From Methanothrix harundinacea (lineage in GTDB: Archaea > Halobacteriota > Methanosarcinia > Methanotrichales > Methanotrichaceae), in the NCBI GenBank assembly GCA_001509375.1, contig LGFT01000002.1, positions 1-63,672 of the forward strand: 63,672 nt of DNA, written 5' to 3'. The position numbers and the translations under genes are program-made. Within the stretch, counting starts at the first letter, position 1, and each line of letters opens with the position of its first letter. This document shows positions 27,353 through 37,531 of this stretch, in pieces. Under the pieces are notes generated by a model. The model had not been told where the DNA came from. It saw nothing but the letters and a program-made list of their open reading frames with translations, and searched no databases.

Positions 27353-27631
27353 TCAGCCGCCCACCACCGCCGAGAAGAGCGCCACCTCATCACCCGCCGC
27401 CAAGGCCGTATCTGGGCCGTTCAGCGACTCGGAGTGTCTCCCGTTGACCATGATGTTCACGTCTTCTCGGACCCTGCCGGAGGAGTCGAAGATCTGATTA
27501 TCAAGGTCGACGGACCTCGAAGCCAGCTTTTTCATAAGGTCGAATACTGTGGAGCCTTCGGGAAGGTCGACCTCCATCTCCCTGTCCAGGAGGTCTCTGA
27601 ACCGTGCGTAGGCCTTCAGTCTGATTATCAT
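27353..27631 (-). CDS. MoaD/ThiS-family sulfur carrier protein (2)
   Basis: This second ubiquitin-fold carrier has 92 residues and ends in VVGG. It differs from the MoaD at 25487 through most of its length (MIIRLKAYARFRDLL, NIMVNGRHSESLNG, AAGDEVALFSAVVGG). Its start overlaps the TfuA stop in ATGA, so it is translationally coupled to the YcaO-TfuA pair rather than to MoaE. That placement makes it a plausible sulfur donor carrier for McrA thioamidation or tRNA thiolation. Confidence 0.9.
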   Translation of the reverse strand: MIIRLKAYARFRDLLDREMEVDLPEGSTVFDLMKKLASRSVDLDNQIFDSSGRVREDVNIMVNGRHSESLNGPDTALAAGDEVALFSAVVGG

Positions 27632-28278
27632 GGTTGTCCTGCGATCTCCTTTATCCGCTTTAGGGCTTGTATGGCGTCGTCCCTCTTCAGGTCTCTCTTC
27701 TCTTGAAGGAATCTCCTAAAAGCCTCTCGCTGTGGCTCATCGATCCCCTCTGCCATCTCCAGGATCTGTTCATAGGTTCTTTTCGGGAAGTAGAGGGACG
27801 ATGCGCAAGCAATGAGCTTCTCGCCCGCCTCCGGCTCGATATATCCCAACTCCACAGCGGCCCTGACGTTGTCCCTGATGTTCACCAGAGGCTCGGATAG
27901 GGGCTCGAATTTGATGGGATCAAATATGAGGGCCACCTCGTCGTCGGAGATGAGGACGTCCTCCTGGTAGAGCCGGAAGATCTCGCCCACCCCCTCCATC
28001 CCGAAGGGATGAAGCTCTGCGGCCCTAAGGGCCCCCATGCTGGAGGCGCCGACGACGGCTACCCCTCTCTCCAGGACGGCGAGAATCTCCTTGTGAGCTA
28101 CGGCGCTGTCCTGGAAGAAGACGCCGTCGATGAGCCCTACGATTTTGGCGCCCTCCTTCGCGGCCCTGAAGACGTCGCCTCTCTTGGCGGGGGGGCGATA
28201 TTCGGCCTCCAGGATCTCTTCGGCCCTCGCCCTATCTAGGCTTGGCCCGAGAAAGACGACGATTTCTCTTGATCTCAT
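27628..28278 (-). CDS. tfuA: TfuA-like protein, partner of YcaO
   Basis: TfuA proteins work with YcaO in thioamide formation; in methanogens the pair installs the thioglycine of methyl-coenzyme M reductase. The 216 residues contain the TfuA core: IVVFLGPSLDRARAEEIL, IVGLIDGVFFQDSAVAHKEIL and the GVAVVGASSMGALRAAEL segment. Its start overlaps the end of ycaO by 47 nt. TfuA is thought to help deliver or activate the sulfur source, and the next gene encodes a sulfur carrier. Confidence 0.93.
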   Translation of the reverse strand: MRSREIVVFLGPSLDRARAEEILEAEYRPPAKRGDVFRAAKEGAKIVGLIDGVFFQDSAVAHKEILAVLERGVAVVGASSMGALRAAELHPFGMEGVGEIFRLYQEDVLISDDEVALIFDPIKFEPLSEPLVNIRDNVRAAVELGYIEPEAGEKLIACASSLYFPKRTYEQILEMAEGIDEPQREAFRRFLQEKRDLKRDDAIQALKRIKEIAGQP

Positions 28279-29452
28279 CTCTGCACCGCTTGCCCCGCCG
28301 ATCCTGGTCCATGGCGCTCTGCTCCAGGCCCGGAACCATCACCCTCACCACAGGGACCCCGATCTCCTCTCGGGTGAGGTCGACGACTATGGCTCTGTCC
28401 ATCCCAGCCTCTTCGAGCCGTTTCAGCATCAGGTTGATGTCGTCGAGGAAGTCCTCGCTATCCTGGGACTTGATCTCGGAGAAGGGCCTCGTCTCCGAGT
28501 CGCCAAACCAGTGTCTGTTCAGCCTCTTGGTCCTATCGTAACCGATCTGTCTCCTGAAATCCGCCGTCGTCGTGTCCTCTCTAGCTCCGTGGATCTGGGT
28601 CAGCCTCGACTGGGCGACCTCCGTCAGGGCCCGGAGGACAGCCACCTGGGCGCTGGTGTGGGTTCCCATCCCGATGGTGAGAAGGGCGGGGTCCTTCAGC
28701 CTTAGGTCGTCAGAGGCCGCGGCGATGGTGGGGACTCCGACGTCGCTTGTGATATCTTTTATCAGGACGTTCACCTCGGCGGCGGCGAACTTCTCTATGA
28801 GCCCCGCCGCGAGGCCGTCCTCCACCTCCGTGACTCGTGGCCCAGTCCTCTTTGCCGCCTCAACGAGGGACCAGGCGTCCCTCTCAATCACCTCGGAGAG
28901 GCCGTGGAAGACCGCCTCCTCCAGGACGTTTCCAGAGGCGAGGCCGTTGGTGTTCGTCCGAAATAGCTGCGGATAGTTGGGAGGCATGGGGTGGAAGACC
29001 CCGCTCGCAGGGACCATCACCTCCTCTCTTCTGATCAGGTCGTAGCCCTCGACCCAGGGGATGGCCATATCGGGGTTCGCGTCCTGAGGGAGGATCAGGT
29101 CCCTCGGGTCGACTGCGTTCGTCTCGGACGCAAGCTTTGAGCAGGTCTCGACCAAAAGTACCCTCTCGTGGACCTCGGCAGAGTACCGCTCGATCCCCTC
29201 CATCATAGCCGAGACCCTCGCCTCAGCAGGGGTGGCGCCCTTGCCGTTGTAGACGGAGATCGCCCCCTTATCAGCGGCGGGCCTGATGCTGGAGAAGACG
29301 GGGATCCCGATCCGGTCCAGGTTGGTGATGTCGGCCACCCTGGTTATCCCCGCTAGCTCCATCTTGGGCGCTATCCGGTCGAGTGTCTCCTCGGGGGAGA
29401 AGGCTCGGTGTGTATCGGTCTTGTACCTTTTTATGCAGGATCTGAGCAACAT
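28232..29452 (-). CDS. ycaO: YcaO-domain protein for McrA glycine thioamidation
   Basis: YcaO enzymes phosphorylate backbone amides with ATP. The methanogen member converts a glycine of McrA to thioglycine. The 406 residues show ATPAEARVSAMMEGIERYSAE, the NTNGLASGNVLEEAVFHGLSEVIERDAWSL region that forms the ATP site, and a C-terminal VPVVRVMVPGLE. It is the first gene of the eight-gene minus-strand operon. Downstream partners are TfuA, a ThiS-like carrier and an E1. The extreme C terminus is Arg/Lys-rich and lies within the tfuA overlap. Confidence 0.95.
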   Translation of the reverse strand: MLLRSCIKRYKTDTHRAFSPEETLDRIAPKMELAGITRVADITNLDRIGIPVFSSIRPAADKGAISVYNGKGATPAEARVSAMMEGIERYSAEVHERVLLVETCSKLASETNAVDPRDLILPQDANPDMAIPWVEGYDLIRREEVMVPASGVFHPMPPNYPQLFRTNTNGLASGNVLEEAVFHGLSEVIERDAWSLVEAAKRTGPRVTEVEDGLAAGLIEKFAAAEVNVLIKDITSDVGVPTIAAASDDLRLKDPALLTIGMGTHTSAQVAVLRALTEVAQSRLTQIHGAREDTTTADFRRQIGYDRTKRLNRHWFGDSETRPFSEIKSQDSEDFLDDINLMLKRLEEAGMDRAIVVDLTREEIGVPVVRVMVPGLEQSAMDQDRRGKRCRDEIKRNRRLSRAKPR

Positions 29453-33705: not shown

Positions 33706-33738
33706 TTTAAATAATACCAGATCCCCCCTTTTCACCAT
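33706..33738 (+). promoter_or_regulatory. Second TATA box, leaderless start of the MoxR-like gene
   Basis: TTTAAATA at 33706-33713 predicts initiation near 33735, almost at the ATG at 33739. No ribosome binding site precedes the ATG, as expected for a leaderless mRNA. Confidence 0.6.
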
Positions 33739-35082
33739 ATGCCAGACCCTCTGCGGAAGATCGACGACCTGGTCTCAGCCCTGGAGGAGCTCCGTCTCCA
33801 CGTTGGGCCCGCCGACCTCCAAGTGGGAGAGAGGAAGGTGAACGGCCAGCTCTACATCCCCCTGGCCAACGCCTGCCTCCGGAACAGGGCCGCCCTCCTC
33901 TATGGAGGGATGGGCGCGAACAAGACGACCCTGGTGAACCTTCTGGGATCGGCCTTCTTGGGCCTCTCCTTCGACGAGGTCGAGAACCGGATGGTTACGG
34001 GCCACCCCGAGCAGACCGAGGAGAAGATCGTGGGGTTCATCGACCCGCGCCAGTGGTCCTCTTCCCCGGCCCCGTCTCACCGATCGTCGAAATCCTCGAT
34101 CAGTTCGCTGTCGTCGTCTTCATTTTCATCCTTCGACGAGGAGGTTGAAGCGATCGAGGTCCTCTGGACCCCCTGGGCGAGGTCGAGGTGGAAGGTGATA
34201 AATGAGATCAACCGATTTCCATCCGGAAAGCAGAACCTCTTTTTGGAGCTGCTCCAGAAGCGGAAGGTGAGCTACGCCGGGGAGACCCTAGACCTGGGGG
34301 ATACCTGTTACTTCGCCACCATGAATCCCGACTTCAGCGCCACATATCCCCTCGACGAGGCCCTCCTCGATCGGATATCTATCTCGGTCCCTGCGACCCA
34401 GCCCGATTTTCTCGCAAGTCTCGCTCTCGCTGAGAGGGAGAAGGAGGTCTATGAGCTGGCCGAGTCCCTCCCCCGTCTATCATCCAAGGAGTTCGACAGC
34501 CTTCCTGGAATGGTCGCTGCAGTGAGCCTCGATAGCCGGGTGGAGCTCTCGATAATCTCCCTTCTCCGGGACTTCACCCTCTGCGAGAGGGCCCCCGCCT
34601 TCGACAAGACTCAGCTATCCGGCGGGTCTAAGCCGAGCCGGGGCCTATGCGCTGGGTGCCATTACTTCAACAATCCCGAAGTCTGCTGTTGGCAGGTGGA
34701 CGAGGGTCTATCCGACAGGGTGAGACAGGACCTCCGATCCTACACCAGGGCTTTGTCCCTCCTCCTGGGTCTTGGGGGTTCGGGAGAGTTGATCGAGGTC
34801 CTGAGGGCCGTGGCCCCCTACGTCATCTGGCATCGGCTCTCCCCCAACAGGACGATGCTGGAGCGACCCCCTTACTACAGGGCCGGGCGGCTTCAGTACA
34901 TAAAAGACCTCGTCGAAAAGAGCATCAACCGGACCCTGAACGAGCGAGGAGAGATGAACATGATCTTCGCCCGGGCCGTAGACGGAGAGATATCTCCTAG
35001 AGAGGCTATAGAAGAGCTATCGGGGTACGACGACCCCATCGCCAGGCTCGACTACGCGAGAGCCCTGGAGAGGATGGTTTGA
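33739..35082 (+). CDS. MoxR-like AAA+ ATPase with Ser-rich insert
   Basis: The 447-residue protein has a MoxR/CoxD-type AAA+ core with altered motifs. Walker A is GGMGANKT (56-63). The Walker B strand reads VINEINR (153-159), with Asn155 in place of the usual Asp and Glu156 kept. The sensor 1 strand is FATMN (192-196). A Ser-rich low-complexity stretch (about 107-131) is inserted between Walker A and B. A Cys set (282, 304, 307, 316, 317; CAGCHYF...VCCW) could bind metal. MoxR ATPases work with VWA proteins as chaperones or metal inserters, and a VWA gene is two genes downstream. The stop overlaps the next start (TTGA). Confidence 0.85.
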   Translation: MPDPLRKIDDLVSALEELRLHVGPADLQVGERKVNGQLYIPLANACLRNRAALLYGGMGANKTTLVNLLGSAFLGLSFDEVENRMVTGHPEQTEEKIVGFIDPRQWSSSPAPSHRSSKSSISSLSSSSFSSFDEEVEAIEVLWTPWARSRWKVINEINRFPSGKQNLFLELLQKRKVSYAGETLDLGDTCYFATMNPDFSATYPLDEALLDRISISVPATQPDFLASLALAEREKEVYELAESLPRLSSKEFDSLPGMVAAVSLDSRVELSIISLLRDFTLCERAPAFDKTQLSGGSKPSRGLCAGCHYFNNPEVCCWQVDEGLSDRVRQDLRSYTRALSLLLGLGGSGELIEVLRAVAPYVIWHRLSPNRTMLERPPYYRAGRLQYIKDLVEKSINRTLNERGEMNMIFARAVDGEISPREAIEELSGYDDPIARLDYARALERMV

Positions 35083-35939
35083 AGCTCTCTGGGTTCATGG
35101 ACCAGGCCTATGGGGGGAAGGTCAGAGGGAAGAAGAGGCTTGAAGAGAAGAGGGGCGAGTTTCTCCTGGGCTTTGAAGACCTTGCCCAGAGGCTGAAAGA
35201 GAGGCCGAAGAGGGCTGAGGTGGAGGCTCTCGCCCCAAAAGATGCTAACTCGATAGTCGACCTCGTCCTCTCGTCCTCGCCAAAGGGCAGGAGAGAAGAG
35301 ACGATCTATGGCATTTTAACCGGCCTCGCGGCCGAGAGGCTGGCGGAGCCCCTCGTCATACCGCCCCGAAACTACGCCGGCCTGGAGATGAAGAGGGGGA
35401 CGATCGTCCTGGACGGCGCTGCTCCGGCCACCGGGCCGAAGAGGGTCTCGGGCGGGGCGGGTCAGACCCGGCCTCAGGGCGCGAAGGCCCACCACCTTGG
35501 GGAGAAGATGTCCGGAGGAAGGCTGATAATCCGGGGCGGCGCCGGAGACTACCTGGGCCAGGAGATGAGGGGTGGCGGCATCGTCTGCTCATCCTCCGGC
35601 GATTATGCCTTCCGGAATATGACGGGCGGCTGGGGGGTCGTCAAAGGCAACGCCGGAAATTATCTCGGGGTCGGAAACTCCGGCGGCAGGATCGTCGTCA
35701 AGGGGAGGGTCGGAGCCAGGGCGGGCTGGCTGATGCGGTCGGGGAGGATACGGGTGGGAGAAGACGCCAGCGAGTACCTGGGCCTCATGATGGGCGGCGG
35801 CTCCATCTCCATTGGGAGGAGGGCCGGTCCCAGGGCTGGGTGGCGGATGAAGGGCGGTCTGATCGAGGCAGCAGGTTATGGCCCCGAGGCGGGAGATGAG
35901 AAGGTTGGGGGCAGAATACTCCGAAGAGAGGATCTATAA
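35079..35939 (+). CDS. GXGXG beta-helix protein (GltB C-terminal / FwdC-like)
   Basis: The 286-residue product has an N-terminal helical part of about 100 residues. It is followed by repeated turns of a right-handed beta-helix with GG-rich corners (GEKMSGGRLIIRGGAGDYLGQEM, NMTGGWGVVKGNAGNYLGV, and four more). This is the GXGXG fold found in glutamate synthase and in FwdC of formylmethanofuran dehydrogenase, where it is structural. No catalytic residues are obvious. The start is TTG, overlapping the MoxR stop. The last 44 nt overlap the VWA gene. Placement between a MoxR ATPase and a VWA protein is unusual. Confidence 0.85.
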   Translation: MKLSGFMDQAYGGKVRGKKRLEEKRGEFLLGFEDLAQRLKERPKRAEVEALAPKDANSIVDLVLSSSPKGRREETIYGILTGLAAERLAEPLVIPPRNYAGLEMKRGTIVLDGAAPATGPKRVSGGAGQTRPQGAKAHHLGEKMSGGRLIIRGGAGDYLGQEMRGGGIVCSSSGDYAFRNMTGGWGVVKGNAGNYLGVGNSGGRIVVKGRVGARAGWLMRSGRIRVGEDASEYLGLMMGGGSISIGRRAGPRAGWRMKGGLIEAAGYGPEAGDEKVGGRILRREDL

Positions 35940-37455
35940 GGTCTGGGAGAGGTCCCGGGCGAGCTGGCACCGTCCCCAGCTTCCAAGGCCGATCATCGAC
36001 GGGTCTGAGGATGCCGACGGCTTTCCCTTCAAAAACTACAGGATCGTCATCGATTCGGATGCCCTCGAAAAGGGCGAGATGTATCTGGAGAACTTCTTCG
36101 ACCATCTGATCGTCCACTATCTCTTCTGCCCGCGGTCCCTGGAGACGGCGGGAAGGCTCTCTCTTGCGGCCCTGGAGGGTCTGGAGAAGAAAGGTAACGA
36201 GAGGGACCAGGCGAGGAGGATGGTGAACATCTTCTCCGACATCGTCGTCGATACCTTCCGCCTGGAGAGAAGCGCGGAGGACGAGGAGAAGGTTCTCCTC
36301 GGCTGGAGGGATTTTGCGAAGCGGAGCCTATCGCCCCTGGACGAGGCGGTGGTGGGGCTTCTCGCCGAACTCTGGAATGTGGACCTTCCATCGTCGGACC
36401 GGCCCGAGTCGGAGATGCTTCTCTCGATCTTCAGCTGGGGCGTGAAGGACAGGTCGAAGTGGCCGAGGCAGTGCATGCAGATGGCGAGGGTCCTCGGCAC
36501 CCTCGCGCCGGGAATCCTAGGCTCCGGCATGGTCCCCTCCATCGAGGGGCTGGGCGGAAACGCCCATTCGGCCCCGCTGTCGGGGCTCGCCTCGGATCTT
36601 GAGCCGGATATCTATCGAGAGGCGCTGTCGGTTCTGGGGCTTGAAGGGGATCTCTTGCGCTGGTACCGGGACCAGAGCTACAGCATAGTGATCAGACCGA
36701 CGAGTCGCGCGAGAGAGAGCTGTTACCCCTCAAGCCTTGTCAAGTGGCGGATCTCAGATCCCCCAAGTGAGCTTGACGTCGCCTACTCCCTCAGCCTCGC
36801 CCCCCGGCTGATTCCCGGAGTCACCACCTATCGGCGGGTGCAGGAGTGCTGCGGGATGGCGGCGGGATCAGAAAAGGTCCCTGACCTCCTCGTCGTCCTG
36901 GACAGCAGCGGTTCCATGGGAGGCCACCGCCGGGGGACCAAGACCCATGCTGCGACCCTGGCCGCCCTCAAGGCTAGCAGCTTCGCCCACTCCCAGGGGG
37001 CGGAGCTCGCGGCCATCAGTTTCAGCGACCGGATGGTCGTCCAGGAATGGACGAGGGATCTCGTCGCCGCAGAAAAGGTCCTCGTCCAGCACCTGGGGTC
37101 CCGGACTCACATCCCCGGTGAGGAGGTGCTGGGCCTGGCGGGAGAGAGGCCCGGCTGCCTGATCCTCTGCATCACCGACACCCACATCCAGAACCTCTAC
37201 AACGAATGGGACTCGATAAAGGAGGCGACGGCCCTCGGACGCTTCGTCCTCTTCTCCATCGACGAGGCGAACAAGAACAAGCAGGTGGACGAGGCCCTCG
37301 GCGACCTGGGGGCCGTCTACCGGATCAACCGGCTCGAAGACCTCCTCGCGCTCGTCATCGAGACGGCCGAGGAGGCCTACCGGCCCCAGGAACCCCACCA
37401 GGGGCGGCAGAGCGGGGAAAGTTTTATCTCCTCTGAACGAATGGGGACAGGCTGA
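35896..37455 (+). CDS. VWA (MIDAS) domain protein, CoxE/NorD-like
   Basis: The 519-residue protein has a helical N-terminal region (about 1-310) and a C-terminal von Willebrand A domain. The MIDAS motif DSSGS starts at about residue 336 and a later Asp is in CITDTHI. This is the layout of CoxE, NorD and CbbO, which pair with MoxR ATPases to insert metals or remodel enzymes. I start at ATG 35896, after GGGAG; an in-frame ATG 18 nt upstream is also possible. The gene overlaps the GXGXG gene and stops 3 nt before tRNA-His. Confidence 0.85.
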   Translation: MRRLGAEYSEERIYKVWERSRASWHRPQLPRPIIDGSEDADGFPFKNYRIVIDSDALEKGEMYLENFFDHLIVHYLFCPRSLETAGRLSLAALEGLEKKGNERDQARRMVNIFSDIVVDTFRLERSAEDEEKVLLGWRDFAKRSLSPLDEAVVGLLAELWNVDLPSSDRPESEMLLSIFSWGVKDRSKWPRQCMQMARVLGTLAPGILGSGMVPSIEGLGGNAHSAPLSGLASDLEPDIYREALSVLGLEGDLLRWYRDQSYSIVIRPTSRARESCYPSSLVKWRISDPPSELDVAYSLSLAPRLIPGVTTYRRVQECCGMAAGSEKVPDLLVVLDSSGSMGGHRRGTKTHAATLAALKASSFAHSQGAELAAISFSDRMVVQEWTRDLVAAEKVLVQHLGSRTHIPGEEVLGLAGERPGCLILCITDTHIQNLYNEWDSIKEATALGRFVLFSIDEANKNKQVDEALGDLGAVYRINRLEDLLALVIETAEEAYRPQEPHQGRQSGESFISSERMGTG

Positions 37456-37458
37456 AGT

Positions 37459-37531
37459 GCCGGGGTAGGGTAGCTGGTCATCCTTTGGGACTGTGGATCC
37501 CATGACCCGGGTTCGAATCCCGGCTCCGGCC
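37459..37531 (+). tRNA. tRNA-His (anticodon GUG)
   Basis: The acceptor GCCGGGG pairs with CUCCGGC with one G-U. The anticodon arm UGGGA-CUGUGGA-UCCCA gives anticodon GUG. The T arm is CCGGG-UUCGAAU-CCCGG, and the discriminator is C73, as expected for tRNA-His. The base at position -1 is T, so the identity element G-1 is not encoded and CCA is also absent. The gene begins 3 nt after the VWA stop. Confidence 0.93.

Follow-up and report, generated by a model that had tools for sequence, protein, structure and literature searches.

A three-gene MoxR, GXGXG beta-helix and VWA module in Methanothrix harundinacea, probably encoding a three-part remodelling machine

We analysed a 63,672-nucleotide stretch of Methanothrix harundinacea DNA (the window), in which three overlapping genes on one strand, at 33739–37455, encode a MoxR-type AAA+ ATPase, a GXGXG beta-helix protein and a VWA protein. 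We concluded that the trio is probably an undescribed three-part remodelling machine of the MoxR/VWA type, with the GXGXG protein as its obligate partner. The genes form a tight module that selection keeps together in Methanotrichaceae and that is distributed all-or-none in a second family; its proteins have an intact Walker A and MIDAS and an FwdC-like beta-helix. An initial annotation had read these genes as a dedicated activation system of a composition not known to have been described. The arrangement was confirmed, with all three genes at their assigned positions on one strand, and our literature search returned no paper combining MoxR and GXGXG. The locus comprises the following features.

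33706..33713, plus strand: TATA-like box TTTAAATA, 5' of moxR, within the conserved block TCGTCTC(C/A)TTTAAATAAGACCAGATC
33739..35082, plus strand: moxR, MoxR-type AAA+ ATPase, 447 aa; Pfam AAA_3, 30.7 bits
35079..35939, plus strand: GXGXG gene, 286 aa, TTG start; Pfam GXGXG, E 9.4e-8
35878..37455, plus strand: vwa, 525 aa at most; helical N-terminal domain and C-terminal VWA domain
37459..37531, plus strand: tRNA-His(GUG), 3 nt past vwa; ARAGORN and Rfam

The overlap between moxR and the GXGXG gene is 4 nt. That between the GXGXG gene and vwa is at most 62 nt and varies with the choice of vwa start; the real start may lie 18–27 nt downstream of 35878, and orthologues in several genomes of the same genus begin at residue 7 or 10. 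The TATA-like box and its surrounding block are kept in six aligned loci of the genus, and by the archaeal consensus the box is a putative promoter. In 16 of 22 Methanotrichaceae loci, that of M. harundinacea included, vwa has a tRNA-His gene no more than about 100 nt away. Besides the trio, no conserved protein-coding neighbour was found in the loci read, and no fwd or glt gene stood beside the module in any of them.

The proposed three-gene order was sought in other genomes, and the trio was collinear in all but one of the 24 Methanotrichaceae sampled; moxR orthologues were likewise present in 23/24, and dN/dS values of 0.10–0.27 showed purifying selection on the trio. Conservation of this extent greatly exceeds what chance would give. 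Highly diverged orthologues of all three genes (16–32% identical) were found in a second archaeal family, apparently the Archaeoglobaceae. There the order was MoxR-VWA-GXGXG, with a second GXGXG copy in some genomes, or VWA-GXGXG with moxR at another locus. The module was patchy in this family (14 of 55 genomes): 13 genomes carried both MoxR and VWA, one carried VWA only (68% complete), and 41 carried neither. The full-length GXGXG protein occurred only in VWA-positive genomes (12/14), and the two remaining VWA-positive genomes were 76% and 68% complete, with the module on short contigs. That is, the three proteins were found together or were absent (Fisher p about 1e-10 to 1e-11 across the 55 genomes; the values are indicative, since the genomes are related and independence is overstated). 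The initial annotation's proposal of a dedicated module thus held in both families and across their differing gene orders. We also looked for loci of this MoxR/VWA subtype lacking the GXGXG gene, the observation that would count against such a module, and found the gene at every sufficiently complete one. Around a more distant MoxR/VWA pair, from a single Methanosarcinaceae-type genome, the 37 kb read contained no GXGXG gene, and the GXGXG protein is therefore not intrinsic to the whole MoxR/VWA branch.

These data bear on the reading that the genes are neighbours without joint function, held by synteny beside tRNA-His, which we consider negligible. Although tRNA-His follows vwa in most Methanotrichaceae, the association is kept in the second family in another gene order and without the tRNA (none lay near the module in the Archaeoglobaceae-type loci examined). 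Co-occurrence holds even where moxR is unlinked, and the all-or-none distribution contradicts a purely positional explanation.

A pattern scan of genome contigs with the VWA protein returned mainly records labelled Methanothrix, Methanosaeta or Methanotrichaceae, plus a few loosely named MAGs; the scan missed the Archaeoglobaceae-type genomes and is hence silent on absence elsewhere. Nothing was found in viral contigs scanned with the MoxR alignment, or in plasmids by tblastn with a second-family MoxR orthologue. A radical SAM gene adjoining moxR in one Archaeoglobaceae-type genus and one further genome was considered as a fourth member and rejected, because it is widespread and is missing from four of five module-bearing genomes of another genus. 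Extra GXGXG matches in module-bearing genomes were ordinary FwdC, encoded next to FwdA-type genes, and similar matches in module-free genomes were GltB-type genes.

Within the MoxR protein we located four sites.

33904..33927, plus strand: Walker A GGMGANKT, residues 56–63, from the alignment of both lineages
34000..34026, plus strand: signature GHPEQTEEK, residues 88–96, subfamily-specific, between Walker A and B
34201..34206, plus strand: Walker B N155-E156, Asn replacing the usual Asp
34582..34689, plus strand: C282 ... C304-x2-C307-H308-Y309 ... C317, putative Zn or [4Fe-4S] site

The protein exceeded the AAA_3 cut-off of 27 bits and has the AAA_3/AAA_5 core and a Walker A motif, in which G56, G59, K62 and T63 are invariant across both lineages. 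The GHPEQTEEK signature was invariant in 17/17 aligned sequences from both lineages and exact in three of five further orthologues from one Archaeoglobaceae-type genus. A serine-rich insert (about residues 107–137) is found in the genus Methanothrix. Walker B reads Asn-Glu in all 24 Methanotrichaceae MoxR sequences and Asp-Glu in the second lineage, so the hhDE pattern is lacking in the former and present in the latter. Judged by its core match, the M. harundinacea protein is a divergent MoxR-type ATPase and not a canonical member; we kept it in that class because the Walker B departure is a single residue. The Asn may weaken ATP hydrolysis in Methanotrichaceae. The four cysteines, which the initial annotation did not mention, are invariant in the alignment of both lineages and are kept in five orthologues of one Archaeoglobaceae-type genus and in the distant Methanosarcinaceae-type MoxR. 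By their conservation they are a likely site for Zn or an Fe-S cluster. Among PDB sequences, the MoxR profile matched 2R44 best (E 2.9e-12), a solved MoxR-type ATPase (CHU_0153); the match spans only profile positions 38–251 and stops before the cysteine site.

The GXGXG protein has two parts.

35079..35420, plus strand: helical N-terminal domain, residues 1–114, from the predicted structure
35484..35939, plus strand: FwdC-like beta-helix with GXGXG repeats, residues 136–286, by profile and fold match

Sequence, profile and fold all assigned the protein to the GXGXG beta-helix. Its Pfam GXGXG match (32.3 bits) fell barely under the 32.5 cut-off, its profile matched FwdC (5t5i_C, E 1.3e-30) and GltB (E 2.7e-7), and FwdC was the top match of its AlphaFold model in Foldseek (E 5.5e-5). 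The protein is not itself FwdC: it scored 82.3 bits on TIGR03122 against an equivalog cut-off of 130.65, whereas the genuine FwdC of the same genome scored 261.3 bits and is encoded after a FwdA-type gene at another locus, which the module genes are not. Nor is it a glutamate synthase large subunit (14.4 bits against a cut-off of 1047 on GltB models). Thus FwdC shares the beta-helix and is the best profile and fold match, but the module protein has an extra helical N-terminal domain and lies outside the fwd operon. That domain was modelled as helices, confidently from residue 32 onward, and the matches of the full-length profile to second-lineage proteins include it. The invariant residues of the aligned beta-helix are nearly all glycines, with no obvious catalytic or metal-ligand set.

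The VWA protein carries an intact MIDAS.

36901..37179, plus strand: MIDAS D342-x-S344-x-S346, T410, D434, from the alignment of both lineages

These residues were invariant in 35 sequences from both lineages, and a VWA partner with the MIDAS DxSxS-T-D set is thus encoded alongside MoxR. By sequence only, VWA_2 matched at E 0.019; the AlphaFold model (pLDDT 78) was backed as a VWA fold by Foldseek (best E 1.0e-5). The M. harundinacea protein had no Pfam VWA_CoxE match with E allowed up to 1, and neither had the VWA protein of another sampled locus with E up to 0.1. A PDB fold search matched nothing to the helical N-terminal domain. A zincin-like domain there (H76/H80 in Methanotrichaceae) was rejected, as the second lineage has not retained these histidines, and no Pfam metallopeptidase family matched the M. 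harundinacea protein. The distant Methanosarcinaceae-type VWA has HETSH and weak M48/SprT matches under cut-off; a degenerate metallopeptidase ancestry of the domain is possible.

Taken as a machine, MoxR would form a hexameric ring, and the VWA protein would dock in it and grip a target via the MIDAS metal. ATP hydrolysis would then twist or loosen the target, as for NorQD, the mechanistic template (PMC9976466, PMC13036017). The GXGXG protein would be a built-in adaptor or a dedicated substrate of the ring, and we lean slightly towards the adaptor: a beta-helix of the FwdC/GltB type would serve as a platform or scaffold on which a cytoplasmic client enzyme is positioned. Metal loading by the module, as the initial annotation suggested, is plausible by analogy with NorQD and CoxDE. 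Should the four-cysteine site bind Zn or an Fe-S cluster, the activity of the machine could depend on metal or redox state.

An alternative that we consider less likely than not, though a serious one, makes the GXGXG protein the client: an enzyme subunit or scaffold, built as a beta-helix, that would need MoxR/VWA for its folding, metallation or assembly, in the way that NorBC needs NorQD. Its gene lies inside the operon, client genes adjoin norQD and cbbQO, and the GXGXG gene is duplicated in tandem in several genomes of two Archaeoglobaceae-type genera, as a structural product might show. However, the lack of an obvious catalytic or metal-ligand set weighs against this, and a gene for an enzymatic partner was linked nowhere in the loci read.

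The initial annotation had proposed as client either the beta-helix protein or a GXGXG-containing enzyme, such as Fwd or GltB. In a related reading, the module acts as a chaperone of formylmethanofuran dehydrogenase (or of archaeal glutamate synthase), and the GXGXG protein stands in for the FwdC/GltB beta-helix during assembly or cofactor insertion. FwdC is the nearest fold and profile match, and FwdC-type genes occur in both module-carrying families, but they also occur in module-free Archaeoglobaceae-type genomes, and other methanogens make Fwd without the module. With no fwd or glt gene adjoining the module, and no obvious tracking of the module by Fwd copy number, a GXGXG-containing enzyme as client was not supported and the chaperone reading seems unlikely. 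More speculative still is the idea of a metal- or redox-sensing MoxR working with an FwdC-mimicking beta-helix that recognises and activates a central C1 enzyme, for example formylmethanofuran dehydrogenase, in Methanothrix and some Archaeoglobaceae.

Among methanogens that use acetate, Methanothrix is a major one, and almost all of its sampled relatives keep this three-protein ATPase module, a description of which was not found in the literature searched. As an adaptor, the beta-helix subunit would give MoxR/VWA motors a new route to selecting clients; as a substrate, it would show that FwdC-type helices have to be actively assembled. Through the four-cysteine site, the motor would be connected to metal or redox state. 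The conserved residues and the all-or-none distribution make direct tests possible.

Among known systems, NorQ/NorD (Fe_B insertion into cNOR) likewise pairs a MoxR AAA+ protein with a VWA protein whose MIDAS is intact and whose N-terminal domain is long. It differs in having no third beta-helix protein, a D-E Walker B in NorQ and known client genes, and the portions of the NorQD reports consulted describe no four-cysteine site like that of the module MoxR. CbbQ/CbbO and CoxD/CoxE share the two-gene MoxR/VWA logic, whereas the module has a third subunit, a VWA protein without a VWA_CoxE match, and no linked rubisco or Mo-CODH gene; client enzyme genes adjacent as in NorQD, CbbQO and CoxDE were absent from the loci read. 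The bacterial MoxR-vWA ternary conflict systems (VMAP, iSTAND, FtsH and beta-propeller types) also place three constant components around a MoxR/vWA pair (PMC7159879). This similar three-gene logic, the patchy distribution in Archaeoglobaceae-type genomes and a weak sub-threshold bpMoxR match (E 0.062) of one Archaeoglobaceae-type orthologue would suit a defence role, which we nevertheless regard as very improbable. PADLOC gave no match for the three M. harundinacea proteins, VMAP, STAND, FtsH and propeller domains are absent, and the VWA protein carries no variable effector. In contrast to those systems, the archaeal module has an FwdC-like beta-helix without effector domains as its third component, and is near-universal and strongly conserved in Methanotrichaceae.

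Window 33739–37455 is made up of three overlapping genes on the plus strand, carried by a genome of 2.38 Mb in 118 contigs. The module and its flanks read as follows.

33706–33713: TATA-like box TTTAAATA, inside a block conserved at six same-genus loci
33739–37455, + strand, first gene: moxR, 447 aa
33739–37455, + strand, second gene: GXGXG beta-helix gene (GX), 286 aa, TTG start, overlapping moxR by 4 nt
33739–37455, + strand, third gene: vwa, up to 525 aa, overlapping GX by 62 nt from its first ATG, or by fewer should translation begin further downstream
37459–37531: tRNA-His(GUG), starting 3 nt past the vwa end

About 4–6 kb from the module (27628–29452) lie TfuA-related and YcaO McrA-glycine thioamidation genes, each above its curated cut-off.

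The comparison took in 24 Methanotrichaceae genomes related to the window's own at family level or closer. Orthologues of all three proteins were found in 23 of them (24 of 25 with the window's own genome); the remaining one, G011, had none of the three. The initial annotation had suggested searching genomes for the three-gene order, and that order was identical at every Methanotrichaceae locus read, whereas orders differed in a second family, f9. Pairwise dN/dS was 0.10–0.13 for moxR, 0.20–0.25 for GX and 0.18–0.27 for vwa. Among the Methanotrichaceae loci compared, no further conserved protein-coding neighbour adjoined the trio. At 16 of 22 loci, the window counted, the tRNA-His(GUG) gene and vwa were no more than about 100 nt apart; neither Archaeoglobaceae-type genomes nor genus g6 had this gene next to the module.

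We searched 394 genomes of the phylum by profile for relatives of the VWA protein. Outside Methanotrichaceae, full-length relatives occurred only in f9, which we take to be Archaeoglobaceae; the remaining matches were short, covered the VWA core only and scored 3e-9 or weaker. Genera g55 and g64 of f9 had the order MoxR-VWA-GX, in many cases with the GXGXG gene doubled in tandem, and in genus g62 VWA and GX were adjacent with moxR at a separate site. Across 55 f9 genomes, 13 had both MoxR and VWA, one (68% complete) had VWA alone and 41 had neither. Full-length GX (E below 1e-45) was present in 12 of the 14 VWA-bearing genomes and in 0 of the 41 others; the two exceptions were 76% and 68% complete, with the module on short contigs. 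Fisher tests gave p = 1e-11 (MoxR-VWA), 2e-10 (GX-VWA) and 3e-11 (GX-MoxR), values that overstate the strength because related genomes were treated as independent. This all-or-none pattern covered three genera, persisted in g62 despite the non-adjacent genes, and included a g55 member (G177) from which the whole set was absent. The three-gene module first recognized from the window is sound, and better supported than was then known.

In G105 and several g62 genomes, moxR was immediately preceded by a radical SAM gene (L200:10298-11209, L227:8220-9101, L228:5983-6873, L230:6518-7459); it is common elsewhere too, and was missing in four of five module-bearing g55 genomes. Five g62 genomes had a small predicted lipoprotein gene directly downstream of moxR (L227:6357-6884, L228:8210-8743, L230:8785-9342, L231:7879-8466, L229:1953-2612), with no Pfam match in the two proteins tested.

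The MoxR protein had an invariant Walker A and the signature motif GHPEQTEEK; its Walker B was Asn-Glu in 24/24 Methanotrichaceae copies vs Asp-Glu in f9. Four cysteines (C282, C304-x2-C307-H308-Y309, C317) were invariant across 27% identity, and their spacing resembles Zn or [4Fe-4S] sites, suggesting that they may bind one or the other. A Ser-rich insert of variable length (residues about 107–137, between Walker A and B) occurred in the window's genus and was absent from the other genera aligned. In the VWA protein the MIDAS residues (the metal site of the domain) were invariant and Foldseek confirmed the VWA fold; its helical N-terminal domain had no known match. Genome G198, probably of Methanosarcinaceae type (same class), encoded a distant MoxR (L253:12993-14741, -) that shares the four cysteines and the Asn-Glu Walker B; a VWA protein with a HETSH motif (L254:7014-8630, -) lay about 10–11 kb from it. 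Because no GXGXG gene lay in the 37 kb read around this pair, the MoxR/VWA branch with these cysteines is older or wider than the trio.

The GX protein comprises an N-terminal helical domain followed by a beta-helix. It was closest to FwdC, the GXGXG subunit of formylmethanofuran dehydrogenase (Fwd; profile E 1.3e-30, fold E 5.5e-5), with GltB further away. Identity with FwdC was rejected: GX scored 82.3 bits where the cut-off is 130.65, and the true FwdC of this genome, encoded next to an FwdA-type gene, scored 261.3 bits. A further FwdC-like GXGXG gene on contig C49 of the window's genome (L170:1375-2262, -) adjoins a tubulin/FtsZ-family gene (L170:202-1305, +; Pfam Tubulin E 3.4e-34, CetZ_C match weak). 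Fwd is the sole client to which similarity points, but we consider it an improbable one, because module-free f9 genomes also had FwdC-type genes, and at the loci read such genes were never linked to the module.

In established pairs such as NorQD, as described in two published accounts (PMC9976466, PMC13036017), the VWA partner sits in the pore of a MoxR ring, with the MIDAS touching the client. Since the trio has parts equal to these, a remodelling role would be the natural inference: a MoxR ring and its VWA partner would contact a client through the MIDAS, as in NorQD. The function proposed in the initial annotation, a dedicated activation system, seems reasonable, and we lean slightly towards GX as an adaptor or scaffold over GX as the substrate. 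PADLOC models did not match the window's proteins. The literature searched gave no publication treating both MoxR and GXGXG. Bacterial MoxR-vWA ternary conflict systems (PMC7159879) have effectors, and third components different from that of the trio. Compared with NorQD and like pairs, what is new in the trio is its constant FwdC-like third subunit.
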